Of a stretch of DNA of 64,000 nt, positions 13,680 to 44,182 are shown piece after piece. Origin of the DNA: Gracilibacillus salitolerans (GTDB lineage: Bacteria > Bacillota > Bacilli > Bacillales > Amphibacillaceae). A program made the translations under genes and the position numbers. Position 1 is the first letter of the stretch, and the number at the start of each line of letters is the position of its first letter. Location of the stretch: assembly GCF_009650095.1 (NCBI RefSeq), contig NZ_CP045915.1:4898001-4962000 (forward strand), in the 5' to 3' direction. The notes beneath the pieces were generated by a model. That model was given only the letters and a program-made list of their open reading frames with translations. It did no database searches and was not told the origin of the DNA.

Positions 13680-13699
13680 AAATAGTTGATCATATAAAG

Positions 13700-13741: not shown

Positions 13742-13792
13742 TACCATTTTACCCACAAAGCTTTTTATGGTCATTTCACACTATCATTACAT

Positions 13793-14509: not shown

Positions 14510-14780
14510 AGACAACCTGCTTTCTGTACTCAAGAACCTAATAAAAAGATTTTAATTAAATCAGTGCTATAGTCCTTAATAATAAATAATAGCATATTGT
14601 AACACATTAGATCATGACCTATGGTTGTTAAATGGTATCATTTGACGAACCACTGTCTTGCTATACTAAAGTCTGATCATGACTCATGACTCCTGATAAG
14701 TTGCCCTAAAAATATTTTTTTGCATAGCTTGTCTCCATTAATGCATATATATAGACTATCAATGGCTAAGGAGGCTTTTT

Positions 14781-15137
14781 ATGCTAAAGAATATTTCATC
14801 CTATCAGCTCATTCGGTATCTAGTTGGCTATGTTTTTATAGCTTCTGCTCTTATGAAATTAGTAGTTGTAGATTTTACAGGTGCATTTTCTAATTATGGT
14901 ATACCATATCCTCATGCTACAGTATTAATTGTAGGGATTACAGAATTGATATGTGGTTTACTAGTCGTTTTTAATTACTATGTGAAGAAGGCGACTATTC
15001 CATTATTAGTAATAATAGTAGCTGCAATTATCCTTACGAAAGTGCCTGTACTACAAGCTGGGCTACTGGAATTTGCATTTGAAGCGAGATTAGATATTGT
15101 TATGTTTTTTCTTCTTTATATTCTTTGGAAAAACTAA
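14781..15137 (+). CDS. DoxX/MauE-like small membrane protein
   Basis: 118 residues; ATG 14781 with AAGGAGG upstream. Four predicted helices; the N-terminal LIRYLVGYVFIASALMKLV and central VGITELICGLLVVFNYY fit DoxX-family proteins, which are linked to thiol/redox and membrane electron-transfer modules. No redox partner is adjacent. Confidence 0.7.
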   Translation: MLKNISSYQLIRYLVGYVFIASALMKLVVVDFTGAFSNYGIPYPHATVLIVGITELICGLLVVFNYYVKKATIPLLVIIVAAIILTKVPVLQAGLLEFAFEARLDIVMFFLLYILWKN

Positions 15138-15207
15138 CGATTAATCAACTATGTTCCCCATCAAGGAAGGATTCTTTCAGTTGTATAGAAGGTTACTAAG
15201 TTATAAT

Positions 15208-15250
15208 CCGCTATGATCAATAAATTGATTATAGCGGCATTTTTATCATT
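15208..15250 (+). terminator. Terminator after the DoxX-like gene
   Basis: 14-bp near-perfect stem CCGCTATGATCAAT / ATTGATTATAGCGG (one G-T pair) with a 2-nt spacer, followed by CATTTTTATC. Confidence 0.8.
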
Positions 15251-15333
15251 TATTTTAATATATAAATAATTTAATGGTAATATATGCACAATACATAGAA
15301 ACCATCTTTCAAGATACAGGAGTTGTTAATCTA

Positions 15334-16731
15334 ATGGAACTTCAAGCAAACCCCCAATTATTATGGTTTATCGGGATTTATGCTGTAATAATGATCGGGC
15401 TAGGAATTTATATGTCAAAGAAAGTGTCGAATAGTACAGACTTTATTCTAGCAGGAAAAAGCTTAGGGCCTTTTGTATTGATGGGTACCTTGCTGGCTAC
15501 CTGGACTGGAAGCGGAAGCATATCAGGTGGAGAAACGTCTGTTGCTTATAGCTTTGGTATTATCCCTTCCCTCATGTTAATGATACCAACTTTAATCGGT
15601 ATTCTTACACTTTACATAGCAGCACCTAAGATCAGAGCATTTGGAAAATATACGATTTCAGGAATTCTTGAAGAAAAATATGGTGTCTCTGCTCGCAATC
15701 TTGCCAGTGTCATTGTTCTGTTAGCGTACGTGGGTATCGTTTCTTATCAAATGAAAGGTTTCGGATTTATTCTCAATCTTACAACAGGAATGAGCGTAGA
15801 ACTCGGTACGATCATTGCTGCGGTTTTAATCATATTTCTTGCGATGATTGGTGGTCTAAAATCTGTTTCTCAAACAGATGCATTAAGTGGATTTTTAATG
15901 GTTGGTGGTTTAGTGATCACCGTACCAATGATTTTCGCAATTGCCGGTGGTTGGGATTCCATCGTTGAAAATGTCCCGGATTCTCATCTAACTGCAACGG
16001 GAGGACTAACAAACATCCAGCTGATTGGCTACCTACTACCTTCCTTATTCCTTTTACTTGGTGACCAAAACATGTATCAACGGTTAGCATCATCAAAAGG
16101 AGATGCTTCATCAAGAAAGGCGCAAATAGGTTGGCTTCTCATTATGCTAATTATTTCACCAGCCATCTCACTAATTGCATTTGCATCTCGTTCTTTATTC
16201 CCTGATATAGATCCAGGGATGGCATTAATGGCGACAACCCTTGCAATGCCTATAGCAATTGGAGGAGTTTTACTTGCTGCAGCCGCTGCTTTTATCATTA
16301 CAACAGGGAACTCCTATTTGCTTTCCGCAGCTACGAATATGACGTATGATATATATGGAAAATATATTAATAGACATGCGTCAGATGAAAAACAATTAGG
16401 TATGACAAAAGTGTTTATCGTAATCCTTGGTGCATTTTCCTATTTATTGATTAGCTTTTTCCCAACGGTGTTAGAAGTCCAAATGTATGCTTATACAGTT
16501 TATGGTGCAGGTATAACACCAGCAATTTTGGCTGTGTTTTTCTGGAAACGCGTCAATGCAATCGGTGGTATTTCTTCCATGGTTGTTGGTGTTGTAACAA
16601 CATTAGTATGGGAAATTATCCTTGGTAAACCATTTGAATTAAACAGTGTCGTTATTTCAGTTCCTGCTGCGTTCATTGTATTAATTGTTGTAACCTTAGC
16701 AACTCAAAAGGAAACGAAGCATAATTCTTGA
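15334..16731 (+). CDS. Sodium:solute symporter (SSS family)
   Basis: 465 residues from ATG 15334 (GGAG 11 nt upstream); an ATG at 15274 gives an extra 20 residues but has no site. About 13 helices; family marks are FILAGKSLGPFVLMGTLLATW near the N-terminus and GGLKSVSQTDALSGFLM in the middle. Members import proline, pantothenate, sialic acid or other solutes with Na+. The downstream M24 peptidase follows after 14 nt, so the pair is probably an operon for taking up and processing a proline-containing or other amino-acid substrate; that link is inferred. Confidence 0.88.
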   Translation: MELQANPQLLWFIGIYAVIMIGLGIYMSKKVSNSTDFILAGKSLGPFVLMGTLLATWTGSGSISGGETSVAYSFGIIPSLMLMIPTLIGILTLYIAAPKIRAFGKYTISGILEEKYGVSARNLASVIVLLAYVGIVSYQMKGFGFILNLTTGMSVELGTIIAAVLIIFLAMIGGLKSVSQTDALSGFLMVGGLVITVPMIFAIAGGWDSIVENVPDSHLTATGGLTNIQLIGYLLPSLFLLLGDQNMYQRLASSKGDASSRKAQIGWLLIMLIISPAISLIAFASRSLFPDIDPGMALMATTLAMPIAIGGVLLAAAAAFIITTGNSYLLSAATNMTYDIYGKYINRHASDEKQLGMTKVFIVILGAFSYLLISFFPTVLEVQMYAYTVYGAGITPAILAVFFWKRVNAIGGISSMVVGVVTTLVWEIILGKPFELNSVVISVPAAFIVLIVVTLATQKETKHNS

Positions 16732-28985: not shown

Positions 28986-29024
28986 AAATATAAGCATAGA
29001 GGTAAGCCCTCTATGCTTATATTT
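28986..29024. terminator. 17-bp hairpin beside the ABC-gene relic
   Basis: AAATATAAGCATAGAGG / CCTCTATGCTTATATTT with a 5-nt loop, immediately after the minus-strand relic at 29031. It was probably the terminator of the gene whose 3' end remains here. Confidence 0.65.
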
Positions 29025-29030
29025 AATTTG

Positions 29031-29120
29031 TTACAATACTTTTGATAAAAATGCTTGAGTTCTTTCGTTTTGCGGATGATTAAATAGTTGATCTGGTGTA
29101 CACTGTTCTACGATAAAACG
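29031..29120 (-). pseudogene. Displaced 3' end of a polar amino-acid ABC ATPase gene
   Basis: The minus strand encodes 29 residues plus stop (ending [12 protein letters not shown]) that match the C-terminus of the intact ATPase encoded at 39425-40153 at 26 of 29 positions. At DNA level 29031-29120 and 39425-39514 differ at about nine of 90 bases by my alignment. Homology stops abruptly at 29120. Nothing else of the gene remains. Confidence 0.9.
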
Positions 29121-29128
29121 ATTCAGTA

Positions 29129-29200
29129 GTTAGGGAACGATTATCTACAGAAAGAGAAGACAAACTTTATCGACAAAGAAAAGAGGCTGTGCCACTAAAA
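29129..29200 (+). pseudogene. Possible transposase remnant
   Basis: The + frame VRERLSTEREDKLYRQRKEAV resembles the C-terminal segment of IS1182-type DDE transposases (K-x-I-Y-x-x-R-K-x-x-V pattern before the last Glu). Only about 24 codons are left and there are no visible inverted repeats, so the assignment is weak. It abuts the ABC-gene relic. Confidence 0.3.
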
Positions 29201-29227
29201 TCGTTAACCACCGATCTGGACAGCCTC
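29172..29227 (-). terminator. Terminator of the CAAX-protease operon
   Basis: Read on the minus strand, GAGGCTGT / ACAGCCTC closes a hairpin followed by TTTTCTTTG, 29 bp after the CPBP gene stop. Confidence 0.6.
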
Positions 29228-29255
29228 GCTTCATCCAGAGGCGTTTCTATTTCGT

Positions 29256-30065
29256 TTAATCCACTAACATTCCGCTAATAACCATTAAGAAATTTAATAA
29301 CATATGCCAGATTACTGCAGGAATAATACTATTGGAACGAACTGTAATAGCCCCAAAAAAGAATCCTCCCACGCTAAATAGAAGGCAACTGATCCAAGAG
29401 AATCCTAAGGAATAATGTTGCAAACCAAATCCAATGCTCGTTATCAATACCGCCCATCGATTACCAAAACACTCAGAAAAACGACTAAGTAGTACACCTC
29501 TCCATATGATTTCTTCCAGCACGGAGTTAAGGATTGAAAAAACAAGCAAGAAACGCCAGATTTCTTGGATGTATGCCCAACTAGTATTTATCACAAATGG
29601 CATAAAAGTAATAAGATTAATAATCATCGCTATGACTAGAAACGTACTTACTTTCGTTCGACGGAAGCCAGACCAAATAAAAGGGATTCGAACAGACTCA
29701 CCCCATTGTGGCTTCTGCCAATAGCTCATAAAAGGAAGTCTGTAAATAAATGATATAGATATTAATGGAATGATAAGAACGATCAATGACAACCTATTGA
29801 TAATGATCCGCATTTCCTCAAGGGTCATTTCCGCAATCCATTGCGAATTCACATAGCCATAAAAAAAGAATCCGATACCAAACGTCAGTGTAATCAAAAC
29901 AAAAAATCTCATTGATTTATCAATGAAAAGGAGTCCTGCACTTATTCCCCAAGCTGTCATTAGTAGGTAACTATCTAATTGCAAAAAGATAACAAGTGTC
30001 CCAAACAAGAATAACGGTAAGATATTTGGTTCAGCGTTGGTAGGAAATAAAAGTGTTCTCTTCAT
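29256..30065 (-). CDS. CPBP-family intramembrane metalloprotease (CAAX protease-like)
   Basis: 269 residues, eight or so helices. Three catalytic motifs of the CPBP/Abi family are in order: EEIIWRG (paired Glu and Arg), FGLQHYSLG (His), and the helix IIPAVIWHMLLNF (His and Asn). Bacterial members often process peptides or act in immunity to self-made bacteriocins. The gene follows the Lys-rich protein at 30093 after 27 nt in the same direction, so they are likely co-transcribed. Function here unknown. Confidence 0.85.
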   Translation of the reverse strand: MKRTLLFPTNAEPNILPLFLFGTLVIFLQLDSYLLMTAWGISAGLLFIDKSMRFFVLITLTFGIGFFFYGYVNSQWIAEMTLEEMRIIINRLSLIVLIIPLISISFIYRLPFMSYWQKPQWGESVRIPFIWSGFRRTKVSTFLVIAMIINLITFMPFVINTSWAYIQEIWRFLLVFSILNSVLEEIIWRGVLLSRFSECFGNRWAVLITSIGFGLQHYSLGFSWISCLLFSVGGFFFGAITVRSNSIIPAVIWHMLLNFLMVISGMLVD

Positions 30066-30092
30066 AAGTGGTGAAACTCCTTCTTTTATTGG

Positions 30093-30539
30093 CTATCCAT
30101 ATATATTTCTATATAATTCTTTTCGTCGCTCTTTTTGCCTACTTTTATATGTTCTATTTTTCTTCTTAACTATCTTATCTGCTGCCTGCTTATTTGTATT
30201 CTCATATTTCTTCTCCATCATCTTCTCTATCGTCTCTGTCTGATCATTTGTATTCTTATTTTTCTTCTTCCTCTTTATCTCTGCTTCTACTTTCTCCTTA
30301 ATCATTTTCACTGTTGAGTTAATCAAATCTTCTACCGGTATTTTCTCAATTATAGTATTAAGTATATCCTCCTTTCCAACCATAGATAACGACCCTGCTT
30401 TTCCCTCTTGCTTATTTTGCTTCTCTAATTCTTGCTTGATAAATTGGTTCCACTCTTGGTCATTCGCCTGATTGTCAGCCGTAATAAGCCCTTCTTCTGC
30501 TGTCGAATTAGATTCAGTTTTTCCTTGTATCTGATCCAT
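30093..30539 (-). CDS. Unrecognised Lys/Glu-rich protein
   Basis: 148 residues; ATG 30539 with AAAAGGAGG 9 nt upstream, a strong site. The N-terminal half is acidic/polar, the middle (KEDILNTIIEKIPVEDLINSTVKMIKEKV) is amphipathic helix, and the C-terminal third is very basic (KKKNRTYKSRQKERRKELYRN). No signal peptide or membrane helix. I do not recognise a family. The basic tail could bind nucleic acid or an acidic surface. Co-directional with the CPBP protease. Confidence 0.7.
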   Translation of the reverse strand: MDQIQGKTESNSTAEEGLITADNQANDQEWNQFIKQELEKQNKQEGKAGSLSMVGKEDILNTIIEKIPVEDLINSTVKMIKEKVEAEIKRKKKNKNTNDQTETIEKMMEKKYENTNKQAADKIVKKKNRTYKSRQKERRKELYRNIYG

Positions 30540-30727
30540 TGATTGAAAACCTCCTTTTATATGTTTGATGCACTTATTTTATTTGTTTAGCCTCCATGTA
30601 TTTTATGTAAATTAGTGATTCCTGCTTAGACTGAAGTGGATTTTATAGAATAATAGTTTATTACCTATAGAATCTAGGATATTTATTCATACACTGAATT
30701 AGTCTGATAAAGCAGGAGTGAAAAAGA

Positions 30728-30925
30728 ATGCAAACAGATAACATGAATATTGGCGATAAAATCTTATTCATTCTAGGCATGAGTTTATGCGGCGTGTTGT
30801 TCTTTGTATTAGTGGCGGGCGTTATCGTTGCACTGTTTATATCTTGGGATGAGGACGATGAGGAACGTACGGAAACGAGTGGTTCCGCGCCGATACAGAA
30901 TAAAAAAATAGTGCGGAAGCAGTGA
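30728..30925 (+). CDS. Small single-span membrane protein
   Basis: 65 residues; ATG 30728 after AGCAGGAG. Short N-terminus, one long hydrophobic segment at about 11-38 (FILGMSLCGVLFFVLVAGVI), then an acidic patch WDEDDEER and a basic tail ending KKIVRKQ. No family recognised. It lies upstream of, and in line with, the small helical protein at 31000. Confidence 0.65.
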   Translation: MQTDNMNIGDKILFILGMSLCGVLFFVLVAGVIVALFISWDEDDEERTETSGSAPIQNKKIVRKQ

Positions 30926-30999
30926 CGTCGGCTTACACAAGCTGAAGTTTAAACTGAATTGGATCGCAGGAAAGGGAATATGCTAAGGAGGTGAAGCAG

Positions 31000-31269
31000 T
31001 TGTCGAGGAAAAACCAAGCGTTTTCGAAAATATTGGAACAATTTCATCGGGAATTTAGATACTTTACCGAGAACTATATGATAGCAGTAAAAAAAGGGGC
31101 AAACGTAGCTGAGAAAGAAATCAAAGAAGCTGTAAAGGATCGTGATCAACCCTTCGAAGTGATTGTAATTAAATTATTCGAAGCCATCAAGAAGGGTGTA
31201 CTATATGCCGCTAAACAAATGGTCGATTTCGGATTTAAACAAACGAAAGATGAGTCAAGAAAAAAATAA
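31000..31269 (+). CDS. Small helical protein A, paralogue-like to the one at 38112
   Basis: 89 residues from TTG 31000 (AAGGAGG 9 nt upstream; the GTG at 30991 overlaps the site). All-helical, basic at both ends, no membrane span. Its core AVKKGANVAEKEIKEAVKD and AIKKGVLYAAKQMVDFGFKQ aligns without gaps to the core of the protein at 38112-38357 (shared A..G, E, D..Q, K, G, K.M, G pattern), which lies at the other end of the hydroxybenzoate cluster. Family unknown; a structural or scaffold role is a guess. Confidence 0.65.
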   Translation: MSRKNQAFSKILEQFHREFRYFTENYMIAVKKGANVAEKEIKEAVKDRDQPFEVIVIKLFEAIKKGVLYAAKQMVDFGFKQTKDESRKK

Positions 31270-31288
31270 AGTAGTTTGTCAAAGTACC

Positions 31289-31321
31289 ATTCATTGCTCT
31301 CATATTTAAAGGCAATGAATG
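31289..31321. terminator. Hairpin between convergent genes
   Basis: CATTCATTGC / GCAATGAATG, 10-bp stem with a 13-nt loop, between the small helical protein and the chorismate-lyase-like gene. Confidence 0.5.
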
Positions 31322-31374
31322 ACCCTAAGGAATGCATTACCTCCTATAGAGCCAGCCATTGCTCAGTCGTTTGA

Positions 31375-31950
31375 TTATTTTTTCTTGATCTCTTGCTGTA
31401 AACGGTGTTCGATGAGGCTTGGATGGTAATATTCGAGCAACTGAATCCCAGGTTTACGTCCGAAATACATGAAGTATCTTTTGTAAGGTACTTTATTGTG
31501 CAGATTAGTAAAACGGATATTGACCGGCTGCCGGAAAAGATCAACCGCTTCCTCTTCATTTACGAAGCCAGAGTCAACTACCTTTCGGAAAGACCGTACT
31601 CCAAGTGAGCTGATCGCTTTACCAATTCCTTGCTTTCGATGAGCAATGTTCTTAAACAAAGCAGGAGGTACGTGCTTGGAATATACAAGTGCAATGTTGT
31701 GTGACACGACAAATCCACTCTTTTCACCGATCAAAACTGATTCTCGGATATAGTACGGACCTCCTGAAAATTCCCCTATTAAATTTGTATCTTCAGCTAT
31801 TTGTTGTTGTCGAATCACTTGTACCGTCACTTTCTCATTCAATAGAATTTCTAGCAAATCTGTTGTTCGTCCATCCGTCACTAATAGTAAGTCGAGTAAC
31901 AATTCTTGTAACAAATCCGAGGCTTTACGTTCAAACTGTGAGTCTATCAT
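31375..31950 (-). CDS. Chorismate pyruvate-lyase-like protein (4-hydroxybenzoate synthase family)
   Basis: 191 residues; ATG 31950 after GGAGGTG. Pattern of the UbiC/Rv2949c family: LLLVTDGRTTDLLEILLNEKV at the N-terminus, an IRESVLI segment with the substrate Arg, a helix ending in VPPALF, and the closing KRYFMYFGRKPGIQLLEYYHP. Such enzymes split chorismate to pyruvate and 4-hydroxybenzoate. It is last in a four-gene minus-strand run with a DAHP synthase and two adenylating enzymes, which supports an aromatic-acid pathway. Family assignment from pattern; activity not proven. Confidence 0.7.
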   Translation of the reverse strand: MIDSQFERKASDLLQELLLDLLLVTDGRTTDLLEILLNEKVTVQVIRQQQIAEDTNLIGEFSGGPYYIRESVLIGEKSGFVVSHNIALVYSKHVPPALFKNIAHRKQGIGKAISSLGVRSFRKVVDSGFVNEEEAVDLFRQPVNIRFTNLHNKVPYKRYFMYFGRKPGIQLLEYYHPSLIEHRLQQEIKKK

Positions 31951-32006
31951 ACTTTCACCTCCATCACCTATTGTGTCAGTCTATCTGTGACAGTAATAGG
32001 AAAGGC

Positions 32007-32834
32007 TTAATGGTACAAACCAGAATCGCGAACGCCGTCCAAAAACGTTTGAAACTCTTCCATATTAAGTTGTTGCTTTCCGTCAGAAAGGGCGTTCGTG
32101 GGATCTGGATGAATCTCCACCATAACTCCATCTGCCCCAGCAGCAAGTGCCGCTTTTGCACAAGGTAGGAGAATATCTTTCCGTCCAGTCGAATGACTGA
32201 CATCCACTAGTACAGGAAGATGGGTTTCTTGTTTTAAAATAGGAACAGCAGAAATATCCAGCGTATTGCGGGTTGCTGTCTCGAAAGTACGAATTCCACG
32301 TTCGATTAACATTACCTGGTCATTGCCATGATGCAAAATATACTCTGCCGCTAGCATAAACTCCTCCAAAGTAGCGGAAAGGCCTCGTTTCAGTAATACA
32401 GGTTTTTTCGTTTGGCCGACTGCTTTGAGCAGGTCGAAATTGTGCATGTTACGAGCACCGATTTGAAAGATGTCAATATACTTGGCTGCGGTATCAATTT
32501 GATTGGAACTCATAATTTCGCTAATCGTCACCAATCCCATTTCATCTGCTACACCCTTCATCATTTTTAATCCTTCTTCACCAAGTCCTTGAAAACTATA
32601 GGGGGAGGTTCTCGGTTTGAACGCTCCACCGCGTAGGACCGATAAGCCCGATTTCTTCAGTGTGGAACCAACCGTTACGAGTTGCTCTTTCGATTCGACC
32701 GAGCAAGGACCTGCGATCAACGTTTGTGAGGAGCCTCCAATAACCGTTTGCTTAACTTTAATAATGGTGTCCTCATTTTTATTGCCGCGGCTTACGAGAA
32801 GCTGCGATTTCTTTTGTTGCGATTTATCACTCAA
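32007..32834 (-). CDS. DAHP synthase, stand-alone type I-beta
   Basis: About 275 residues; the start is uncertain: TTG 32834 has AAAGG at good spacing, ATG 32843 touches the site, GTG 32882 has none. [50 protein letters not shown] and [13 protein letters not shown] are the metal- and phosphoenolpyruvate-binding motifs of 3-deoxy-7-phosphoheptulonate synthase. There is no fused AroQ chorismate-mutase domain, which in Bacillus mediates feedback inhibition, so this copy may be unregulated and dedicated to feeding the chorismate-lyase-like enzyme downstream (57-nt gap). Confidence 0.92.
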
Positions 32835-32909
32835 GGTAACCATCCTTTCTTTCTGTTGATCAAAAGAAAATATCCTAACCACTTACAGTTCTAATATGCA
32901 TGCATGAAT

Positions 32910-34151
32910 CTATCCTGATGTGCCGTGACTACGCTTTTTGATATATACAGGCTTTATCGATGGCGTGTTATCTATGAGATCCATTCGATCGACCATTGTA
33001 GTGATTTCAACAGTGACTGGCACCTTAAGCCGAGAAGATAAGAGAGAACGGACATTTTCTTCTGACCATTTTTGGGAATCATGCGAATCTAGTAATAAGT
33101 GCAAGCCCTCCTCCTGCTCTATCACCTTCCAAGCATCCGGAGCAGGGGATAACGAGTATACGGCTTCCTGAATATCCATTGCATCAAGGACAGTGCTTCC
33201 GAAGCAGATTCTATCCTTGCTTCTGCCGTAATGAACCAGTTTGGCTCCAGTCCGTCCGCAGTTGCATAAACCATGTTCTACAGAGATAATGTCTTCGTTG
33301 AAATATCGTAGCAGTGGAGAACCTTGGTGAGATAGCGTCGTGATTGTTGCAAAGCCTCTTTCCCCATCTTCCACAGAGTTTGAACCGTTCTCATTTAGTA
33401 CTTCTACGAAAAAATCTTGTTCTACGATATGCATGTTCCCATGTTCACACATGGTAGCGATATTAGCGGTTTCCGTTGAACCGTACATATTAAATACTGG
33501 CACGTTCCACAGTTTTTCTATATGCTTTCTGCGCTTGTCACTCATTAATTCACCAGCAACACATATGGCACGTAAAGCAGGAAAATCCTTACTTGGCTTA
33601 GAACCTCCTAGACGAGCCACTTCAGCCAGCAGTTCCATCTCACGCGGAAGCCCGGCCATCACTGTGACAGAAAGATTCTTCAGCAAACTTAGTACTCTTG
33701 GATAAGGAGTAACGACCGTACGTCCGCTTGCGGGAACAACTCCTGCCCCTGTTTGCCAAGCTGCATGCTGCATTAAGAATGCTGGTAGTGCCATTGCATA
33801 GGGAAAACGGATCAGCACAAGGTCTTCAGACGTCAAACGCACACCACATTCCTTCAGTTGTCTTCCCCCAATTTGTAAATCTTCTTGCGTAAACCATGAG
33901 GCAGAGGGCACTCCAGTTGTGCCTGTTGATTCGTGGTATTGAGCTATTTCCTTCCTGTCGACAGCAAGAGGACCGAAAATGCCGGCTTCTCGTAAATCTT
34001 TTTTTGTTGTTAATGGAAGTGTTTGGATTTGATCCAGTTCCATTCCGTTTACATCATGATCCGCTAGTTTCCACTTATACAGAGGAGATTTTTGAATCCG
34101 CTTATACATCTCCTGAAATTTCCTAGCCCTCTCTATATCGATGTCGCTCAT
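32910..34151 (-). CDS. Phenylacetate-CoA-ligase-type adenylating enzyme 1
   Basis: 413 residues; ATG 34151 after GAGGAGGTG. ANL-superfamily marks: STGTTGVPSA (ATP loop), FNMYGSTETAN, LLRYFNEDI (ribose-binding Asp replaced by a looser motif) and a C-terminal PSIKPVYIKK with a candidate catalytic Lys. CNCGRTG in the middle resembles the zinc-finger-like insert of PaaK enzymes. Likely activates an aryl acid such as hydroxybenzoate as AMP or CoA ester. It lies between the second adenylating enzyme (31 nt) and DAHP synthase, in one operon. Confidence 0.82.
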   Translation of the reverse strand: MSDIDIERARKFQEMYKRIQKSPLYKWKLADHDVNGMELDQIQTLPLTTKKDLREAGIFGPLAVDRKEIAQYHESTGTTGVPSASWFTQEDLQIGGRQLKECGVRLTSEDLVLIRFPYAMALPAFLMQHAAWQTGAGVVPASGRTVVTPYPRVLSLLKNLSVTVMAGLPREMELLAEVARLGGSKPSKDFPALRAICVAGELMSDKRRKHIEKLWNVPVFNMYGSTETANIATMCEHGNMHIVEQDFFVEVLNENGSNSVEDGERGFATITTLSHQGSPLLRYFNEDIISVEHGLCNCGRTGAKLVHYGRSKDRICFGSTVLDAMDIQEAVYSLSPAPDAWKVIEQEEGLHLLLDSHDSQKWSEENVRSLLSSRLKVPVTVEITTMVDRMDLIDNTPSIKPVYIKKRSHGTSG

Positions 34152-34182
34152 ATGCCACCTCCTCTCTCACTTTTCGCTATAT

Positions 34183-35529
34183 CTAATTAAATACTCTAGT
34201 CGCTTTGCCAAACGTACGAGGGATATCATCTCTGATTACAACTTTACAGTCTATCCCAATCCTATTTTTCATGTGATTTTGTATCTTTTCCACTAATTGC
34301 TCATCACTTAAATTCGTGCGGAATTTCTCGGCTTCAATCGTTAACACCCCTTGATTAAGCTTAAGGTGATACCATAAACCTACATCTGGAATTTCCATAA
34401 GAAAGTGCTCAATCATAAATGGAGAATAATCTTCTGTGCCTATACGCAACATGTGCTCCATTCTTCCTCTTAGCTCTAGGACATCCATCTTGATTCCACA
34501 ATTACATTTGGATTTTTGCAATTTGCCTAGATCTCCGGTGCGATAGCGTACCATCGGCATTCCCTCACGCAGCAGTGTCGTCACAACGATTTCTCCTGTT
34601 CGCCCGTAAGGAAGCACTTCTTTAGAAACCGGATCAATAATTTCCAATTTAACATGCCCTTCCATGACGTGATATCCTTGATGTTTGCTGCATTCTACAC
34701 CGATAACTCCGCATTCAGTTGATCCATAGAAAAAGGAAACTTCACATCCCCACCACTTTTCCAACCGTTCTCGGAACGTGGAGGAACATCCCTCACCTGT
34801 AAGCCAGATTTTCTTCAACTGAATATCTTCACCTATCTTGATACCGTACTTCTCGCTTTCTTCTGCTAGTAGCGCTGCATAAGATGGTGTTGTTGTAAGA
34901 ACAGTGGCTTGATATTCTTTCATTAATTCCAACGACTTATCAACCGGAGCCATATAACCGCCTTTTCCAAGCGATAACACCGCAGTACCAAAGGCAAACT
35001 GGAATAAGCGCTGAAACCCAAGACCAGGCAGCGCGAACTCATATGGAAGCGCAATTGCCGCGACATCATCATCTGATTCCTTAAACAGTTGCAAATACTT
35101 CGGTAACAAATCATATACATATTGATCAGCCAAGGTATAAGAGGTATAAATTGGTTTACCCGATGTACCACTTGTAAGATGAACTTGGCCTATTTCTTTC
35201 GGAGCAACACATAATATCTTCTCTTTATCTCCTCGAATAAGATCTTTCACCAACATTGGTACAGATGCTAGTTGTTCTAGGCTATCTATTTTTGGCTCTG
35301 TGAATCCTGCCTCTTCTAGCCTTGCATGATAGTATTCATTATGATTCCACACATGCTCAAGAGTGGCGTTAATAGCCTGTAACTGATATTCTTCTATTTC
35401 TTCATGAGGTAGTTTTTCAATTGTTTTTCCTTGGTCATCTAATTCTTTATAAAATTCTTTGAATTGTTCTAGATGGGATGAATGTTTATCCACGGAAACT
35501 GTCATCTTATGCGTTTGCAACTTCTCCAT
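34183..35529 (-). CDS. Phenylacetate-CoA-ligase-type adenylating enzyme 2
   Basis: 448 residues from ATG 35529 (GGAGG 6 nt upstream); an in-frame GTG at 35574 lacks a clear site. ANL marks: LTSGTSGKPIYTSY (P-loop), SFFYGSTECG, MVRYRTGDLG (ribose Asp) and a C-terminal FGKATRV with the catalytic Lys; KCNCGIKM gives a PaaK-like Cys pair. More canonical than enzyme 1. First gene of the minus-strand operon with enzyme 1, DAHP synthase and chorismate-lyase-like protein. Two different ligases suggest two substrates, or activation followed by transfer. Confidence 0.85.
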   Translation of the reverse strand: MEKLQTHKMTVSVDKHSSHLEQFKEFYKELDDQGKTIEKLPHEEIEEYQLQAINATLEHVWNHNEYYHARLEEAGFTEPKIDSLEQLASVPMLVKDLIRGDKEKILCVAPKEIGQVHLTSGTSGKPIYTSYTLADQYVYDLLPKYLQLFKESDDDVAAIALPYEFALPGLGFQRLFQFAFGTAVLSLGKGGYMAPVDKSLELMKEYQATVLTTTPSYAALLAEESEKYGIKIGEDIQLKKIWLTGEGCSSTFRERLEKWWGCEVSFFYGSTECGVIGVECSKHQGYHVMEGHVKLEIIDPVSKEVLPYGRTGEIVVTTLLREGMPMVRYRTGDLGKLQKSKCNCGIKMDVLELRGRMEHMLRIGTEDYSPFMIEHFLMEIPDVGLWYHLKLNQGVLTIEAEKFRTNLSDEQLVEKIQNHMKNRIGIDCKVVIRDDIPRTFGKATRVFN

Positions 35530-35574
35530 TTCCATCCTCCATTCCATATATTTTTCTAACGCCTCAAATTCCAC

Positions 35575-35891
35575 GCCCTAAGTTACTTTATTATTCGCCC
35601 TTAAATAGAAAGATACCCTATGACCATATTGATTGAATTATCTAAGGGCTGATTTTTTATAATGGCTTTGAAACTAACATTTTGCCAATAACTTTAATTT
35701 ATTATTTAGTTTTCTATCACCGCTTTACTTCCCTCCTTTCTTTATTCTTTATCAAATGCAAATGGTGTCAGAGTTGACTCGGACAAATATATCATTTAAT
35801 AAAAATCAGGGATTTCATCCAATCGGTTCCTATTAAAAGACATATCGTAACTAGCACAAATTATTTATTATAAAAAGGAGGTTGAACCGCA
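35575..35891. other. Divergent promoter region of the two arms of the hydroxybenzoate cluster
   Basis: About 317 bp, AT-rich, between the divergent ligase operon and the DUF4915-like operon. It should hold both promoters; I see no long palindrome or RNA fold. The + gene has AAAGGAGG at 35876. Confidence 0.5.
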
Positions 35892-36791
35892 TTGTTATAC
35901 GGATTGGAGAATGATCCAGATTTTGAACATATTAATACACGTCTACTAATCACTTGTCCATCCAGTGGGTCTGATCAAGGCGGCCTATTTTTACTAGATT
36001 TTGAAAATAATACTTTCGAGAAACTATATACAGGAAGCTGTTCAGGAATGACGATAGTTAATGATCGATTGTTTATAGCGTCTGACGATAACGAACTCAT
36101 TACGATGGACCAGAAATTCCGAGTCATTCAGAAAAAGCAATACTCGAAACTTGATTTTCACGATATTTCAAAGTTCGATGATCATGTTGTTCTGGTTGTA
36201 GAAACCGCGACCAATACAATCGGGTGCTATAATACCGAAACACTTACACGATCAGGGGAGATCCGATTTAGTGCAGAGGACAAAGACATCCATCATATTA
36301 ATGACATTTGGTTAGATGGTCATACATTGTATGTTTCTATGTTTTCTCCCTATGGAAAATGGTATATGAACCCTATGCATAAAAACGGTGGAATTGTCGC
36401 AATTGATTTAACAGATTTTCATCCCAATCAACAACTCCATATAAACCCTGAGAATCATGTCGTTGTAAAGGACTTGTATATGCCACATACGGTAATGATG
36501 CATCAAAACGAATTAGCTTATTGTGACTCTATGTCTTTCCGTGTCATAGCCGGAAACACGAAACCAATTCAACTATCGGGTTTCACACGTGGTCTTGCCA
36601 TAACAGAAAATACAATCTTTATCGGACAAAGCAGGATGAGGCATGTTTTACGAATCCCTCACGAATTCTCAAATTGCTGCTTAGATGGTGGAATCTATGT
36701 CTACGATCCTAAATATAGAATTTCGCGTTTCGTACCATTACCGGCGCAACAGGTATATCAAATCCTGAGCCTTGATCAAAATTTTATTTAG
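35892..36791 (+). CDS. DUF4915-like beta-propeller-type protein
   Basis: 299 residues from TTG 35892 with AAAGGAGG 10 nt upstream. All-beta by eye with repeating strands (LITCPSSGSDQGGLFLLDF, DDHVVLVVETATNTIGCY, HHINDIWLDGHTLYVSMFS). SGFTRGLAITENTIFIGQSRMRH fits the conserved RGLA..-FVGxSxxR block of DUF4915/TIGR03032 proteins. No signal peptide. The function of the family is unknown to me. First gene of the plus-strand arm, 15 nt before the first TPR gene. Several His/Cys/Met residues (HH, CC) could bind metal. Confidence 0.55.
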   Translation: MLYGLENDPDFEHINTRLLITCPSSGSDQGGLFLLDFENNTFEKLYTGSCSGMTIVNDRLFIASDDNELITMDQKFRVIQKKQYSKLDFHDISKFDDHVVLVVETATNTIGCYNTETLTRSGEIRFSAEDKDIHHINDIWLDGHTLYVSMFSPYGKWYMNPMHKNGGIVAIDLTDFHPNQQLHINPENHVVVKDLYMPHTVMMHQNELAYCDSMSFRVIAGNTKPIQLSGFTRGLAITENTIFIGQSRMRHVLRIPHEFSNCCLDGGIYVYDPKYRISRFVPLPAQQVYQILSLDQNFI

Positions 36792-36806
36792 AAGGGGATA
36801 ATTGTA

Positions 36807-37313
36807 ATGAAACAATTTGAGGAAGGAAAAAAACTTTTTATGAAAGGTGTAAATGGGGATAAAAAGGCGGTAAAGCTCGCCTATGATATTTTCTTAAGCC
36901 TCCGTGATACAGAGCCTAACAATGCTCTTATCGAAGCCTATTACGGCAGCACTCTCGCACTATTAGGACGAGATGCTTCTCAGCCTTTGGAAAAAGCAGA
37001 TAAAGCGCAAGAAGGACTAGACGCATTGAATCAAGCAATTTCTAGGGATCCCAAGAACAAGGAAATTCGGATGTTACGATCAAATGTATGTTTACGTCTA
37101 CCAGAATCTTTCTTCCAATGCTCAAAGACGGCGGTTGAAGATATCTCCTTTCTGCTAGATCGTTATCAAAAAAATCCTAGTTACCTTACTAATAACCAGG
37201 TGAATGAATTGATAGAAGACCTACGTACTGCTTACAAGAATATGGGTAAGCCGGACGAAGCAAGTAAAGTTTCGCAACGTTTTTCTAAGTTAACATCGAA
37301 GAAAAAGAAATAA
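36807..37313 (+). CDS. TPR protein 1
   Basis: 168 residues; ATG 36807 after AAGGGGATAATTGTA. Helical repeats; characteristic LIEAYYGSTLALLGRDASQPL, GLDALNQAISRDPKNKEIRMLR and RLPESFF. Paralogue of the next gene, with the same EAY-GST-RD-PL-K pattern, and ends in a Lys-rich tail. TPR folds bind partner proteins; no enzymatic motif. Second gene of the plus arm. Confidence 0.75.
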   Translation: MKQFEEGKKLFMKGVNGDKKAVKLAYDIFLSLRDTEPNNALIEAYYGSTLALLGRDASQPLEKADKAQEGLDALNQAISRDPKNKEIRMLRSNVCLRLPESFFQCSKTAVEDISFLLDRYQKNPSYLTNNQVNELIEDLRTAYKNMGKPDEASKVSQRFSKLTSKKKK

Positions 37314-37338
37314 AAAAACAAAAGGGAGGTACAACCAT

Positions 37339-38034
37339 TTGGTAAATATAAGCGAGAAAGATATCAAGCCTTTACAAGAAAAGGTGATTTCATTACACAA
37401 GGAAGCCGTGGAAGGAAATGAAAAGGCTGTTCAAGACCTGCATCAAATGCTAGAACGGGTGCGATCCAACTATTCAGACATCCCCCTTTTGGATGCATAC
37501 CATGGTAGCACCATGATTTTAATAGCTAGGGATAAGACAAATCCGTTAGATAAATTGAGGTGGTCGAAATCAGGACTGAAGCTTCTAGATGAAGCAGTAA
37601 GTTCCGCCCCTCAAAATATCATAGCTCGATTATTAAGAGGTAAGGCTGCATATCAATTGCCTGAAAAGCATTTCCATCGAGCACAAACAGCGATTGAAGA
37701 CTACACTTTTCTCATTGAGCGGCAAATACATGGGGAAGGCTTCCTTAACATCAAAAGATACTGGCAGCTTATTTATGAACTAGGCAATGTATATCATCGA
37801 ATTGGCCAAAATCAGCATGCAAGTATGTGCTGGCTGAGGCTTAAGAACGAAACACAAGACCCTGATTTTCTGCATCTCCTCCAACTAAAGCTTAAATTAT
37901 TGGAAGGAAAACCTGCTGTTGAGTATATACCAAAAGTAGAAAGTCCGATATCAAAGTTGATAAGGAGGGCCGTTAGTGCAACTGAGAGCGAACTCCAACC
38001 GGTAAAAGCAGCAAGAGAAAGAAGAACATCGTAA
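37339..38034 (+). CDS. TPR protein 2
   Basis: 231 residues from TTG 37339 (GGGAGG upstream). Same architecture as TPR protein 1 over its first 140 residues (LLDAYHGSTMILIARDKTNPLDK, RLLRGKAAYQLPEKHF, AIEDYTFLIER), plus an extra C-terminal helical and basic tail (ISKLIRRAV). The pair looks like a tandem duplication. Followed after 77 nt by small helical protein B. Confidence 0.75.
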   Translation: MVNISEKDIKPLQEKVISLHKEAVEGNEKAVQDLHQMLERVRSNYSDIPLLDAYHGSTMILIARDKTNPLDKLRWSKSGLKLLDEAVSSAPQNIIARLLRGKAAYQLPEKHFHRAQTAIEDYTFLIERQIHGEGFLNIKRYWQLIYELGNVYHRIGQNQHASMCWLRLKNETQDPDFLHLLQLKLKLLEGKPAVEYIPKVESPISKLIRRAVSATESELQPVKAARERRTS

Positions 38035-38111
38035 AATAACAAAAAGAAACTTTAGTCCAATTTCCAACAGATAGTGAAGGAAAGTCTCTTTGGAAGGAGG
38101 TGAACCTATAT

Positions 38112-38357
38112 ATGACAAAGGATGTTATTAAAGTGATTAAGGAAGCAAGGGAGCACTCTGAACCTTTCGTTACAGATGCATTGATCAGAGGAGTCACCCG
38201 GCTTAGCAATGAAATGAATGATGTGGCAATCGATGTAAATCAATCTCCCCGAATGCTATTAGGGAAAATGGCTATTACGCTGAGGAATGGTGCCATCACA
38301 ACAGGAAAAGAAATGATGACGAGAGGATTAGAAAGAATGCAAAATTATCGGACATAA
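38112..38357 (+). CDS. Small helical protein B
   Basis: 81 residues from ATG 38112 (AAGGAGG 11 nt upstream; a GTG at 38100 touches the site). All-helical, no membrane span. Core ALIRGVTRLSNEMNDVAID and TLRNGAITTGKEMMTRGLER aligns to small helical protein A at 31000. Last gene of the plus arm. Family unknown. Confidence 0.65.
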   Translation: MTKDVIKVIKEAREHSEPFVTDALIRGVTRLSNEMNDVAIDVNQSPRMLLGKMAITLRNGAITTGKEMMTRGLERMQNYRT

Positions 38358-38397
38358 ACTTGCCGTTTCTTTGTCATGATTAGTTTACATTTTCATT

Positions 38398-38434
38398 AAT
38401 AAAAAAACACCATAGCTACGATGGCTGTGGTGGT
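38398..38434 (-). terminator. Terminator of the minus-strand TPR gene
   Basis: On the minus strand the stem ACCACCACAGC / GCTATGGTGT is followed by seven T residues. It also sits 40 bp after the end of the plus-strand arm, so it may serve both. Confidence 0.75.
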
Positions 38435-38471
38435 TTCTAAATTTTTAATGCTATCTCTCTTTATTATTCTC

Positions 38472-39011
38472 CTAACGTTCTTTCATTGCAACTTGCAATA
38501 ATTGTAGAGCCTCTTTACTCTTCGGCTCTATTGCTAATGCCTCGTTTAGTGCTTCTTTTGCTTTTGCAAGATCGCCCGTTTCCATATAACACTTAGCCAG
38601 GGACACCCATATTTCAATATCACTCATCCCTTGCTCAATACAATAACGGAATTCTTTGGCCGCTTCAGCGGGATCCCCCCCTAACATATCCGGCGTATTT
38701 AATAACTTGGAACCATTCATCCTTCTTGCGAGTGGCAATGTCGGGTCGATTTCAAGAGCAGTCGTGATCTCGTTGTCTAACTTGTTAAAGAGATCCATTT
38801 TATCCGTCAAACTCCACGCTGTATCAATTTGACGACCGTAAACTGCTGCAAGCCATGCATGAGCTTCCGCACTGTGAGGAACCAGTGTTATTGCCTCCTT
38901 GAACAATCGATGTGCTTTCTCGTACTCATCTATTTTAAACTCACTGTATCCTCGATGAAGCAAGTCTTGCAATAGAAGTTTCCCCTCTCTATCATGCTTG
39001 TCGTTAGACAT
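38472..39011 (-). CDS. Soluble TPR protein 3
   Basis: 179 residues; ATG 39011 after GAAGGGAGAG. Four or so TPR units: GYSEFKIDEYEKAHRLFKEAI, AHAWLAAVYGRQID, a GGDPAEAAKEFRYCIEQG block and WVSLAKCYMETGDLAKAKEAL. The NGSKLL.TPDMLGGDP motif occurs in many bacterial TPR proteins of unknown role. Convergent with the plus arm; probably part of the same islet. Confidence 0.78.
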   Translation of the reverse strand: MSNDKHDREGKLLLQDLLHRGYSEFKIDEYEKAHRLFKEAITLVPHSAEAHAWLAAVYGRQIDTAWSLTDKMDLFNKLDNEITTALEIDPTLPLARRMNGSKLLNTPDMLGGDPAEAAKEFRYCIEQGMSDIEIWVSLAKCYMETGDLAKAKEALNEALAIEPKSKEALQLLQVAMKER

Positions 39012-39365
39012 GGATAACTCTCTCCCTTCGGATAATCTTCAGCCATGCATAGTGGTTATTTGTAATAACATTCCAGATCCTTAAAGACTGGAATGTTTTA
39101 TTTTACTACCTAGCCTGTTGTCTGAATCTCTTATTCTTCATTTTCAAAAGTGGAGGATTCGGCTTTATGTGTCAGTAAACCCACCTTTATGATTTAAAAA
39201 GAAGCAAATAGCAGCATTAATTTCTTATGTTTTTCCTTATCTATGCATTATTTAAAAATATATAATGATTATATGTTGTTTGCTAAGATATGCTCTCGGC
39301 TAATGCCAATATCAAGATTATAGTTGAACTGATGAAAGTCTCACTTTATAACTCTTCAAAGAAAA
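39012..39365. other. Gene-free stretch with an orphan plus-strand terminator
   Basis: Contains AACATTCCAG / CTGGAATGTT at 39067-39097 followed by TTATTTTA, a good plus-strand intrinsic terminator, yet no plus-strand gene ends here; it could end a small RNA starting inside or antisense to the TPR gene. Nothing else recognised. Confidence 0.45.
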
Positions 39366-39404
39366 AAATCCAGCAATGTTTCACGGAGAAACGTTGCTGG
39401 ATTC
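39366..39404 (-). terminator. Terminator of the amino-acid ABC operon
   Basis: Minus strand: AATCCAGCAACGTTTC pairs with TGAAACATTGCTGGATT (one G-T pair), then TTTTTTC. Strong, 20 nt after the ATPase stop. Confidence 0.9.
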
Positions 39405-39424
39405 CTTGTTTATAAATTTAGTTG

Positions 39425-40153
39425 TTATAAAACTTTCGATAGAAATGCTTGAGTTCTTTCGTTTTGCGGATGATTAAATAGTTCATCTGGTGTACCTTGT
39501 TCCACGATAAAACCTTCATCCATAAAGATAACACGATCGGCGACTTCCTTAGCGAAGCCCATTTCATGTGTCACGATTGTCATCGTCATTCCTTCTTCAG
39601 CCAAATCTTTCATGACCTGAAGTACTTCCCCAACCATTTCTGGGTCTAAGGCCGAGGTAGGCTCATCAAACAACATAATGTGCGGTTCCATCGCTAAAGC
39701 ACGAGCTATGGCTACCCGTTGCTTTTGTCCGCCAGATAAGTTGTCCGGATATACATCTGCCTTTTCTACTAATCCAACTTTATCTAGTAGCTGTGTTCCT
39801 AATTCATTGGCTTCTGATTGTGATTTGCCTTTTAATCGTTTAGGTCCAAGTGTAATGTTTTCCATTACCGTCATGTGTGGGAACAGATTAAATTGTTGGA
39901 ATACCATCCCCAACCTTTGACGCAATTCATTAATATTAGTTTTCGGATCGGTGAGATTATCTCCTTCAATAAAAATATCTCCACCAGTTGGCTCTTCTAA
40001 TAGATTCATACAGCGTAAAAGTGTACTTTTTCCAGAACCTGAAGGGCCAATGACACACACTACTTCTTGTGAGTGAACATCCATATTTATATCTTTTAGA
40101 ACCTCTAATTTACCAAATGATTTTTTAAAATTATTTACCTCGATCATTTTCAT
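39425..40153 (-). CDS. Polar amino-acid ABC transporter ATPase (GlnQ-like)
   Basis: 242 residues; ATG 40153 overlaps the permease stop (ATGA-type coupling). Walker [13 protein letters not shown]-loop MVFQQFNLF, signature [16 protein letters not shown], Walker [15 protein letters not shown]-loop VTHEMGF. Family of GlnQ/HisP that powers import of glutamine, arginine, cystine or similar. Its last 30 codons are duplicated 10.3 kb away at 29031-29120. Confidence 0.95.
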
Positions 40154-42115: not shown

Positions 42116-44182
42116 TTATTTGTTTTTATTAGCCTTCATCACTACTTCATAATCATACTCAGCACTTCCGCCCTTACCAGGTTCAGGTGCATAAGTAACC
42201 ATCATTAATACTTTAGCGTATTGAGAGCTTTGTAACATATCACGAAGATCTACCTTATCACTTTCACTCATATTTAGTAGATCTGGGAATTGAATGACTT
42301 TGACATGATTGTCTTTCCCTTTTGCTTTTCCTTTCTTAAATCCGATGAACTGAACTTGATAATCGACGTATTCCTTTGTTACTTGTTCTAAACTCATGAA
42401 ATCATCAGTAATTTCCATTGCATCAATTAGCTCGTCATTTATTTTAAGGTTTGATAAATACCAACCTTCTTCATTGTAACCCCAGTCTGTCATGTAACGA
42501 AATGCCAGATGTACCTTTTGACCAGCATACTGAGAAAGATCGAAACTCTCTGTTGTCCAACCATTTGAACTTCCAGTGAACCCTGGTACATTTTCTTTGA
42601 TCGTTGGATAGCCCTCTTCCACGATATCACTACTTGTGTTTTCATTTGCCAAAGAAGTCCACGTCTGCCCATTATCTGTTGATACTTGAACAACACCGAA
42701 ATCCCAATGTTCTTCTATCTCATATTTTGTTTCAAAAGATAGGACGGGATTTGTATCACCTGTTAGATCAAGCTCTTTTATTAAGAAATTATCTGCCTGG
42801 TCCCCTTGATTCCCCCAAAGAACCTCACCTTTATCTGAGTTATTTACAGTTGTCCAATTGGTGCCAAGGAAATCAATACCTTTGAAATACAGATGATCGA
42901 TCTTCTTGTCAGGTGTAATGAATTTCATATCTGTTCCCCAAGCTGGTGCCAAAGTATCCAACTCCGATGCTGCTTCTAGATTAGGAGTTAAGTCTATGGT
43001 ATTAAAATTATATGTTTCACTATCTCCTTGATAGTTTCCATCTAACATTAATGCGATCATAAAATCTTGATAAACTGCTTTAAAGTCTCGATCACTTCCC
43101 ATTTCTTCTAAAACCGCATTTATACTATCAATACCTTGTAATTGGCTTTTAAACTCTTTCTGAAGAAATTCTTGTCCGTATTGTTCATATAAATAGAGTT
43201 GGAATAGGTAGGCAATTCCATAGTCACCTAGGATTTGAAGATCAGACTGATCTCCCCACTGTGTTAAGGAGTTCTTAAGGTTATTCATAATAAAATCAAC
43301 GTGTGATGTTGAATGACCATATCCCACCAGATATTGTGCAAAATCAGATAATCCTTCATTAATAAAATTTTCTTCTGCTGGATCACTGTCACGATGAAGT
43401 AAATGTTGAAATTCATGTGCAAAGGTTCCTTCATACAAGAAAGGTCTATCAGCATCCGGACCTGTACGGTTTGCCCAATCAAAACTATCAATTGTCATTA
43501 CATTTCGATCCGTAAAATCACTTATAGTAGGTGAAAAATACCCTGCAATATAACTTGGATAGTTCGGATCATAATAATTATCATCTTTAATGTTATCTAT
43601 TAAGATAACAACACGCCCAGAATCGTCTTGATGATATTCAGGAAATATGGCCTGTTCTCCCTTTCTTTCAGCAGGAGCATCGAAAAATTCAACCTCTTGT
43701 TCATACATATTTTCATCAAACTCATTTAAAAGATAATGAACCTGCTCATCAGTAACTACAGATACTTCAGCAGCATTCCTTGGATCTCCTTCAGGATACT
43801 CCAAGTTGTCAGCTACCCATACCTCTCCATGTTCACCTACTCCTTTAAGGGTAAATTCTGTTAGTACATATTGACCTGATGTATTATTAACCGTAACCCA
43901 CGGTTTGCTAATGCCTATATCATCTGGTGTGACGGCTGAAGATACCCCAGCATCTTTACTTTCTGATGATTCTTCTTCGTTTACATCAGCCCCACTAAAA
44001 TCAACCCTTCCTTCCTTTAAGGCCTCTTCTACCGTTTCAGAGCGAAAATCTGGATCTACTTCTTGCACATTCGGATCTGGGTTATACCCTTTAACTTGCG
44101 CACTTACTATGGAAGGGAATAACATACTACCTGCTAGAATGGGAATAGATAAAACGGATAAAACTTTTTTTGATGTTTTCAT
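42116..44182 (-). CDS. Secreted zinc metalloprotease with immune-inhibitor-A-like C-terminal domain
   Basis: 688 residues; signal peptide 1-28 (SIVSA), acidic pro-region about 30-90. Zinc site HEFQH at 256-260 with the third ligand probably E276 in FINEGLSDF, a gluzincin arrangement as in peptidase M30 (hyicolysin)/M6-related enzymes. The region about 430-600 (VLSFETKYEIEEHWDFGVVQV, WTTESFDLSQYAGQKVHLAFRY, EEGWYLSNLKI) is the beta-sandwich found C-terminal to immune inhibitor A proteases. It should digest extracellular protein. The very acidic composition suits a salty habitat. Confidence 0.82.
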   Translation of the reverse strand: MKTSKKVLSVLSIPILAGSMLFPSIVSAQVKGYNPDPNVQEVDPDFRSETVEEALKEGRVDFSGADVNEEESSESKDAGVSSAVTPDDIGISKPWVTVNNTSGQYVLTEFTLKGVGEHGEVWVADNLEYPEGDPRNAAEVSVVTDEQVHYLLNEFDENMYEQEVEFFDAPAERKGEQAIFPEYHQDDSGRVVILIDNIKDDNYYDPNYPSYIAGYFSPTISDFTDRNVMTIDSFDWANRTGPDADRPFLYEGTFAHEFQHLLHRDSDPAEENFINEGLSDFAQYLVGYGHSTSHVDFIMNNLKNSLTQWGDQSDLQILGDYGIAYLFQLYLYEQYGQEFLQKEFKSQLQGIDSINAVLEEMGSDRDFKAVYQDFMIALMLDGNYQGDSETYNFNTIDLTPNLEAASELDTLAPAWGTDMKFITPDKKIDHLYFKGIDFLGTNWTTVNNSDKGEVLWGNQGDQADNFLIKELDLTGDTNPVLSFETKYEIEEHWDFGVVQVSTDNGQTWTSLANENTSSDIVEEGYPTIKENVPGFTGSSNGWTTESFDLSQYAGQKVHLAFRYMTDWGYNEEGWYLSNLKINDELIDAMEITDDFMSLEQVTKEYVDYQVQFIGFKKGKAKGKDNHVKVIQFPDLLNMSESDKVDLRDMLQSSQYAKVLMMVTYAPEPGKGGSAEYDYEVVMKANKNK

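Follow-up and report, generated by a model that had tools for sequence, protein, structure and literature searches.

A conserved gene cassette with 2 PaaK-like ligases and a chorismate-lyase-like protein in Gracilibacillus salitolerans: a candidate aryl ester system of spore-forming Bacilli

Gene Content and Organization

We examined a gene cassette located in a 64,000-nucleotide stretch of the 5.09 Mb genome of Gracilibacillus salitolerans (contig NZ_CP045915.1, positions 4,898,001 to 4,962,000), which we refer to as the window and in whose coordinates positions are given. In an earlier note, made from the sequence alone, the locus had been placed at 31000 to 38357 and described as 2 PaaK-type adenylating enzymes, a 3-deoxy-D-arabino-heptulosonate 7-phosphate (DAHP) synthase, and a chorismate-lyase-like protein encoded on the minus strand, divergent from a DUF4915-like protein, 2 tetratricopeptide repeat (TPR) proteins, and a small helical protein encoded on the plus strand. 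Profile matches and coordinates confirmed that all of these genes are present on the strands described, and that the whole unit is larger, extending from 29256 to 39011 with the addition of genes for a CPBP protease, a lysine/arginine-rich protein, a small membrane protein, the helical protein HelA, and a third TPR protein.

The genes are arranged in 5 runs. The first run, on the minus strand (35574 to 31375), contains the genes for PaaK1, PaaK2, the DAHP synthase, and the lyase-like protein. PaaK1 (34183 to 35574) is a PaaK-like adenylating enzyme with an AMP-binding_C_2 domain, and its start is probably located near 35529, about 15 codons inside the listed open reading frame (ORF), where most of its relatives begin. 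PaaK2 (32910 to 34151) is by sequence a PaaK-like aryl ligase of the ClxA/AjiA1/NatL2/BagE group, the DAHP synthase (32007 to 32882; PF00793, 288.6 bits) is an extra copy without a chorismate-mutase domain, and the chorismate-lyase-like protein (31375 to 31950; PF01947, 22.7 bits with a cut-off of 22) is Rv2949c-like and would form 4-hydroxybenzoate. The second run, on the plus strand (35892 to 38357), encodes the DUF4915 protein (35892 to 36791; PF16261, 40.7 bits, above the cut-off of 35), the TPR-like protein TprA (36807 to 37313), its paralog TprB (37339 to 38034; 33% identical to TprA), and the small helical protein HelB (38100 to 38357).

The third run, on the plus strand (30728 to 31269), consists of the genes for a single-pass membrane protein of 65 amino acids (30728 to 30925), in which the membrane stretch was read by eye from the sequence, and for the small helical protein HelA (30991 to 31269), which can be aligned with HelB. 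The fourth run, on the minus strand (30539 to 29256), encodes a low-complexity protein rich in lysine, arginine, and glutamate (30093 to 30539) and a CPBP (Rce1-like) membrane protease (29256 to 30065; PF02517, 66.2 bits), and the fifth, also on the minus strand (39011 to 38472), encodes the TPR protein TprC.

Conservation across Genomes

A survey of genome contigs for PaaK2 with short exact peptide patterns yielded 44 matches, 19 of which were relatives, from the 8 genera Gracilibacillus, Metabacillus, Bacillus, Shimazuella, Aquibacillus, Oceanobacillus, Paenibacillus, and Cohnella; the patterns reach only close relatives with an identity of 58% or more, and the number of genera is thus a lower bound. 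Together with 6 more loci from Gracilibacillus, these form a comparison set of 25 loci besides the window, referred to by L-numbers where they need to be told apart. The closest named relative of the PaaK2 protein in the window was that of Gracilibacillus sp. YIM 98692 (90%). Within the family of the window, PaaK2 was identified at E <= 1e-60 in 13 of 159 genomes, including that of the window, and in 3 of 46 genera, and an order-wide sample contained it at E <= 1e-90 in 2 of 397 genomes.

The genes for PaaK1 and PaaK2 were both present in all 25 loci, where they were adjacent except for a single intervening gene in L014 and L017. The lyase gene was found in 24 loci, the sole miss being L019, which is a contig of 4.6 kb, and the TprA/TprB genes, which cross-match each other, were likewise found in 24 loci. 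The DAHP synthase gene was identified in 22 loci, one of which contained a fragment at the contig end, and it was missing from 3 Cohnella loci. For the short proteins, the numbers vary with how closely a sequence resembles the copy in the window and should be taken as minimum values, as a looser comparison links more of them: HelA was found in 20 loci, the 65-amino-acid membrane protein in 19, and HelB in 14 by tblastn, whereas tblastn matches to the lysine/arginine-rich protein, which is conserved in its N-terminal part, were obtained in 13. The CPBP protease accompanies the cassette in 14 loci, and TprC in 9.

In contrast, lacI and sbp, located just outside the unit in the window, were found in none of the 25 loci, where the 8-kb flanks would reach both genes in the window layout except in L019. 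A metalloprotease-like gene (42116 to 44182), detected in 1 of the 25 loci, lies almost beyond the flanks and was not retained as a control for synteny; ABC ATPase matches in 2 loci were paralogs of about 30% identity. The grouping of the genes is not a matter of chance, and the cassette almost certainly represents a functional unit. The shared pathway proposed in the earlier note is thereby upheld, in that the PaaK pair, the lyase, the DAHP synthase, and the TPR genes stay together across genera in 25 further loci. None of the tools used matched the cassette to a described system, and we make no claim that it is undescribed.

The 2 Adenylating Enzymes

PaaK1 contains both PaaK domains and a C-terminal lysine stretch of the form GKA-x-R, in likeness to the phenylacetate-coenzyme A (CoA) ligases, to which it is nearest (168.9 bits to 4r1l). 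The scores against TIGR02155 (PaaK; cut-off 646.3) were 181.8 bits for PaaK1 and 105.7 bits for PaaK2, and the 10 plasmid-borne relatives of PaaK1 listed, of 101, were 28% to 33% identical. An APS-kinase-like ORF was located directly before the PaaK1 gene in L003, L009, and L010 (6006 to 6608 in L010, the only one that was scanned), hinting at sulfation or another phosphorylation.

The nearest solved relatives of PaaK2 were ClxA, AjiA1, and NatL2, with 295, 232, and 217 bits, as compared to 128, 85, and 76 bits for PaaK CoA ligases, a grouping based on sequence scores. Furthermore, a Y-x-E-S motif preceding the phosphate loop was present in all 26 PaaK2 sequences (that of L037 being a fragment of a broken gene) and in ClxA, AjiA1 (YHES), and NatL2 (YHES), but was absent from 4r1l, 2y27, and PaaK1; this criterion is our own reading of the alignments and not a published one. 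The best NCBIfam model was NF041217 (BagE_FevW), with 195.4 bits at a cut-off of 800. Judged by sequence, PaaK2 is thus a different enzyme from PaaK1 and belongs with ClxA, AjiA1, NatL2, and BagE rather than with the CoA ligases. The earlier note had the acid activated twice or in 2 ways by PaaK-type ligases; the second ligase is not another PaaK.

ClxA, AjiA1, and NatL2 are enzymes that join 2 hydroxy-aryl acids. ClxA from Clostridium cavendishii, presumably of the closoxazole pathway, has been solved with 3-amino-4-hydroxybenzoate (9s3l, 9s45), and the title of the NatL2 structure 6tm4 names 2 molecules of salicylic acid. On balance, we expect PaaK2 to make aryl esters. The surroundings of these enzymes differ from those of PaaK2. 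The cassette ligase has a DAHP synthase, the lyase-like protein, and TPR and helical proteins as its companions. AjiA1 and NatL2 are benzoxazole ligases of pathways that use 3-hydroxyanthranilate and an amidohydrolase partner, whereas no such partner was recognized at the cassette. BagE/FevW and BagF/FevY, of the bagremycin and ferroverdin pathways, resemble the cassette in combining a ligase with a dedicated DAHP synthase, but the cassette proteins scored far below both cut-offs (195 of 800 and 319 of 700), and no other Bag/Fev gene was recognized at the cassette.

A benzoxazole route via 3-amino-4-hydroxybenzoate was considered and rejected, in that PF01959, to which one 3-amino-4-hydroxybenzoate enzyme belongs, is matched only once in the genome, by a gene of half length. 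What this gene (L063; C1 4566500 to 4586000, 9424 to 9972 on the minus strand) encodes is the C-terminal half, standing alone, of a 3-dehydroquinate synthase II of the archaeal type; the match spans profile positions 163 to 343 only, and the gene precedes others read as tryptophan biosynthesis genes.

Chorismate Supply

The similarity of the lyase-like family to the chorismate-lyase profile is weak, with matches at E <= 0.01 for 14 of 20 members and a window copy barely above the cut-off. Fold comparison, which says little outside residues 13 to 182, identified a chorismate-lyase fold, and the residues aligned with the arginine and glutamate of UbiC, which we take to be the product-holding residues R76 and E155 (77 and 156 when counted with the methionine), were kept in all 24 lyase sequences, the broken L037 gene being left out. 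The protein thus resembles UbiC, Rv2949c, and the DUF98 protein AF1396 (2nwi) in fold and in 2 aligned active-site residues, but only weakly in sequence. Unlike in known chorismate-lyase contexts, no prenyltransferase or polyketide synthase was found among the genes of the unit. In the genome as a whole, no UbiC-type lyase (PF04345) was detected at E <= 0.001, and the only PF01947 match was the cassette protein itself. It is quite likely that the cassette makes 4-hydroxybenzoate, which would then serve as its substrate, and the structural comparison agrees with the supply of this compound envisaged in the earlier note.

No chorismate-mutase domain was identified in the cassette DAHP synthase at E <= 0.1, whereas CM_2 is carried (64.4 bits) by the one further DAHP synthase that the genome encodes. 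This domain passes on feedback control in DAHP synthases. Among the Paenibacillus loci, L012 has it almost complete (35.6 bits), and L009 (27.6 bits) and L010 (25.6 bits) have part of it, and we read the cassette enzyme as a housekeeping-type DAHP synthase that has lost the domain. NF041229 (BagF_FevY) was the fourth-ranked model for the enzyme (318.7 bits, cut-off 700). The idea of a raised chorismate supply is strengthened by the presence of an extra enzyme of this form. Of the Cohnella loci without a DAHP synthase, L014 contained genes for an acyl-CoA-synthetase-like protein, a P450, and a pyridoxal phosphate enzyme around the cassette, and L017 an HMGL-like aldolase gene near it.

TPR, Helical, Repeat, and DUF4915 Proteins

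Matches to TPR profiles were below threshold in TprA and missing in TprB. In 4 of the 9 loci with TprC, this protein was fused to the C-terminus of a PaaK2-type ligase: to PaaK2 itself in L014, L017, and L018, and in L002 (Metabacillus arenae) to a second PaaK2-like ligase (774 to 2537; 55% identical), located beside the main cassette. The fusion physically links a TPR protein to the candidate ester ligase.

HelA and HelB, encoded at the 2 ends, look like paralogs; in an alignment of 25 sequences around A-x3-G...Q...G, a single column is invariant and 3 others reach 90% or above. The lysine/arginine-rich protein contains repeats of differing units after the conserved N-terminal part in L003, L005, L006, and L007, which we read as the style of a structural protein. 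Sequence searches for solved relatives of HelA/HelB and the DUF4915 protein gave nothing credible.

The DUF4915 gene was intact in 6 of the 25 loci, present as a remnant or broken in 5, and absent in 14. With an intact gene in only 6 loci, DUF4915 was rejected as the heart of the system, contrary to the scaffold role given to it in the earlier note, and we regard it as a dispensable member. In L005, L007, L008, and L013, an alpha/beta hydrolase gene ends the TPR operon (2 of the 4 were scanned with profiles).

Promoter Element and Sporulation

A promoter-like element, CCAATCGG-N14-CATATCGTA, precedes the TPR operon on the plus strand (35819 to 35849). The sequence CATANNNTA was located upstream of the first gene of the operon in all of 23 regions, namely the window and 22 loci, the 3 Cohnella loci without the divergent layout being left out. 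The expected number was 3.1, and at most 9 were obtained in 1000 first-order shuffles, which overstate the independence of the loci, as these share ancestry. The element survives while many of the intervening bases do not. In the direction of PaaK1, CATANNNTA was found in 5 of the 23 regions, as compared to 2.5 expected.

CATANNNTA is the -10 sequence of sigma-K, and is close to that of sigma-E, with a -35 AC located 15 to 17 bases upstream. By our own reading, CCA occurs 22 to 24 bases before CATANNNTA in 21 of the 23 regions. AC at the -35 distance was seen in 5 of 9 and 5 of 25 upstream regions, as compared to 0.17 and 0.37 expected, and the match is incomplete. In the same genome, dpaA, a sporulation-associated control, is preceded by AC-N16-CATATGATA, whereas the element was not seen upstream at the yabG and cotE loci. 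A second block, TTTGTCCGAGTCAA followed by TTGCATTT, was identified with the pattern TTGTCYGA in 19 of the 23 regions (about 35755 to 35800 in the window, read on the minus strand); the reverse of TTTGTCCGAGTCAA, with a GGACAAA core, resembles SpoIIID sites. A genome-wide search with the promoter pattern gave 14 matches, as compared to 19 for the reversed pattern, and the other 13 ORFs, checked by script only, provided no sporulation lead. A sigma-70 scan of 29000 to 39600 gave 26 matches where 30.6 were expected.

The cassette adjoins genes for YheC/D ATP-grasp proteins, DUF1796, polysaccharide synthesis, and phosphoenolpyruvate (PEP) mutase in the Cohnella loci, families that are associated with spore coats or surface polymers. 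In L013 (Cohnella terricola), genes for a PEP mutase, a thiamine pyrophosphate enzyme, a radical SAM protein, and a YheC/D ATP-grasp protein are located beside the cassette (11490 to 16157), possibly as a phosphonate polymer locus. The co-occurrence of the cassette with sporulation was useless as a test because nearly all of the sampled genomes of the order contain SpoIVA (381 of 397, with PaaK2 in 2 of 397). We consider that the cassette is probably under sporulation control, and it would be expressed in the mother cell.

Inheritance of the Cassette

Phylogenies were inferred for the 2 ligases only and are compared here without a species tree. In the PaaK1 tree, Shimazuella (Thermoactinomycetaceae) clustered with Metabacillus and Bacillus in a group of 15 rows (100/100; 90/67 for the Shimazuella fork), the rest of which belonged to the Bacillaceae or the genus of the window, and the same Shimazuella fork was recovered in the PaaK2 tree (95/92). 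Both trees also placed 2 genomes of the window's genus next to Aquibacillus and Oceanobacillus (100/97 and 100/99). These groupings indicate transfer, and suggest that the cassette has moved between families and is probably mobile. A plasmid origin was rejected: all 101 plasmid-borne PaaK1 relatives were below 60% identity, with 32.7% for the best among the matches listed.

In a congener (G022, locus L037), the cassette has decayed and several of its genes are interrupted by stops or frame breaks, which suggests that the trait can be lost. Stops were also flagged in the PaaK2 matches of genomes G027, G030, and G037; these flags probably reflect ORF-terminal stops, because PaaK2 reads open over 407 to 410 residues in L039, L040, and L011.

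Proposed Role and Alternative Explanations

Starting from the conservation of the unit, the folds, the 2 lyase residues, the kinship of PaaK2, the missing chorismate-mutase domain, and the promoter element, we tentatively propose, at somewhat less than even confidence, that the cassette serves sporulation from the mother cell: it would produce 4-hydroxybenzoate, build aryl esters from it, and place these on proteins of the spore surface. The horizontally moving cassette would be turned on in the mother cell of endospore-forming Bacilli during sporulation. The extra DAHP synthase would drive carbon toward chorismate, which the lyase-like protein would cleave to 4-hydroxybenzoate. PaaK2 would adenylate this acid and couple it to the phenolic hydroxyl of a second aryl acid, forming an ester without CoA, and PaaK1 may prepare the acid or the dimer for transfer by adenylation, yielding either the adenylate or a CoA ester. 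The enzymes could be held in one assembly by the TPR proteins, among which one occurs in certain genomes as a fusion with PaaK2, and the aryl esters may be received on a surface formed by the small helical proteins and those rich in lysine and arginine. Deposition on the spore surface, taken by itself, is somewhat less likely than not. An unlikely extension is that some spore-formers have a spore coat of aromatic polyester, in which a PaaK-like ester ligase working without CoA would link 4-hydroxybenzoate units head to tail, with dedicated lysine/arginine-rich and small helical proteins as anchors, TPR proteins as organizers, and a mobile cassette as the source of the genes.

The product could instead be a small molecule of the benzoxazole or bagremycin kind, either secreted or intracellular, a free aryl ester or amide for which the TPR and helical proteins would be enclosure or export helpers rather than targets. 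The kinship of PaaK2, the extra DAHP synthase reminiscent of the BagF/FevY arrangement, and the hydrolase gene that 4 loci have as the last of the TPR operon fit such a product, which we nonetheless find rather unlikely: conservation of the TPR genes equals that of the enzymes, the only PF01959 match covers a C-terminal half, and no amidohydrolase or transporter was recognized among the ORF families common to at least 3 loci, mostly judged on the first 60 to 70 residues of an example without scanning, although 2 families common to 2 loci look like permeases. It is very improbable that both ligases form CoA thioesters for the degradation of aromatic acids, as the position of PaaK1 closest to phenylacetate-CoA ligases might suggest, since by its sequence PaaK2 falls outside the CoA-ligase group, the ligases have the lyase-like protein and a biosynthetic DAHP synthase as neighbors, and no degradation family was recognized among those common to at least 3 loci, most of which were not scanned.

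Two further alternatives concern single elements of the proposal. The lyase-like protein might be a sensor with the ligand fold of GntR-type regulators, which detects an aromatic acid made elsewhere that the ligases act on; we give this a low probability. There is a small chance, a little higher than for the sensor, that the same chemistry belongs to a vegetative stress or envelope locus and that CATANNNTA is recognized by another regulator. The incomplete -35 match, the lack of the element on the PaaK1 side, and the second conserved block point in this direction, while the CCA at a near-constant distance, the same -10 sequence at dpaA, and the YheC/D and DUF1796 neighbors in Cohnella argue for the mother-cell sporulation cassette.

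The fusion of TprC to the ligase and the sporulation-type promoter element are new relative to the earlier note. The patchy inheritance over the Bacillaceae, Paenibacillaceae, and Thermoactinomycetaceae suggests a trait that is worth gaining and easy to lose. If the proposed role is correct, an aromatic-ester layer or modification would be added to the known chemistry of bacterial spores, ligases of the benzoxazole type would be used for building structure rather than an antibiotic, and functions would be provided for several unnamed protein families, including the TPR pair, the small helical pair, and the repeat protein.

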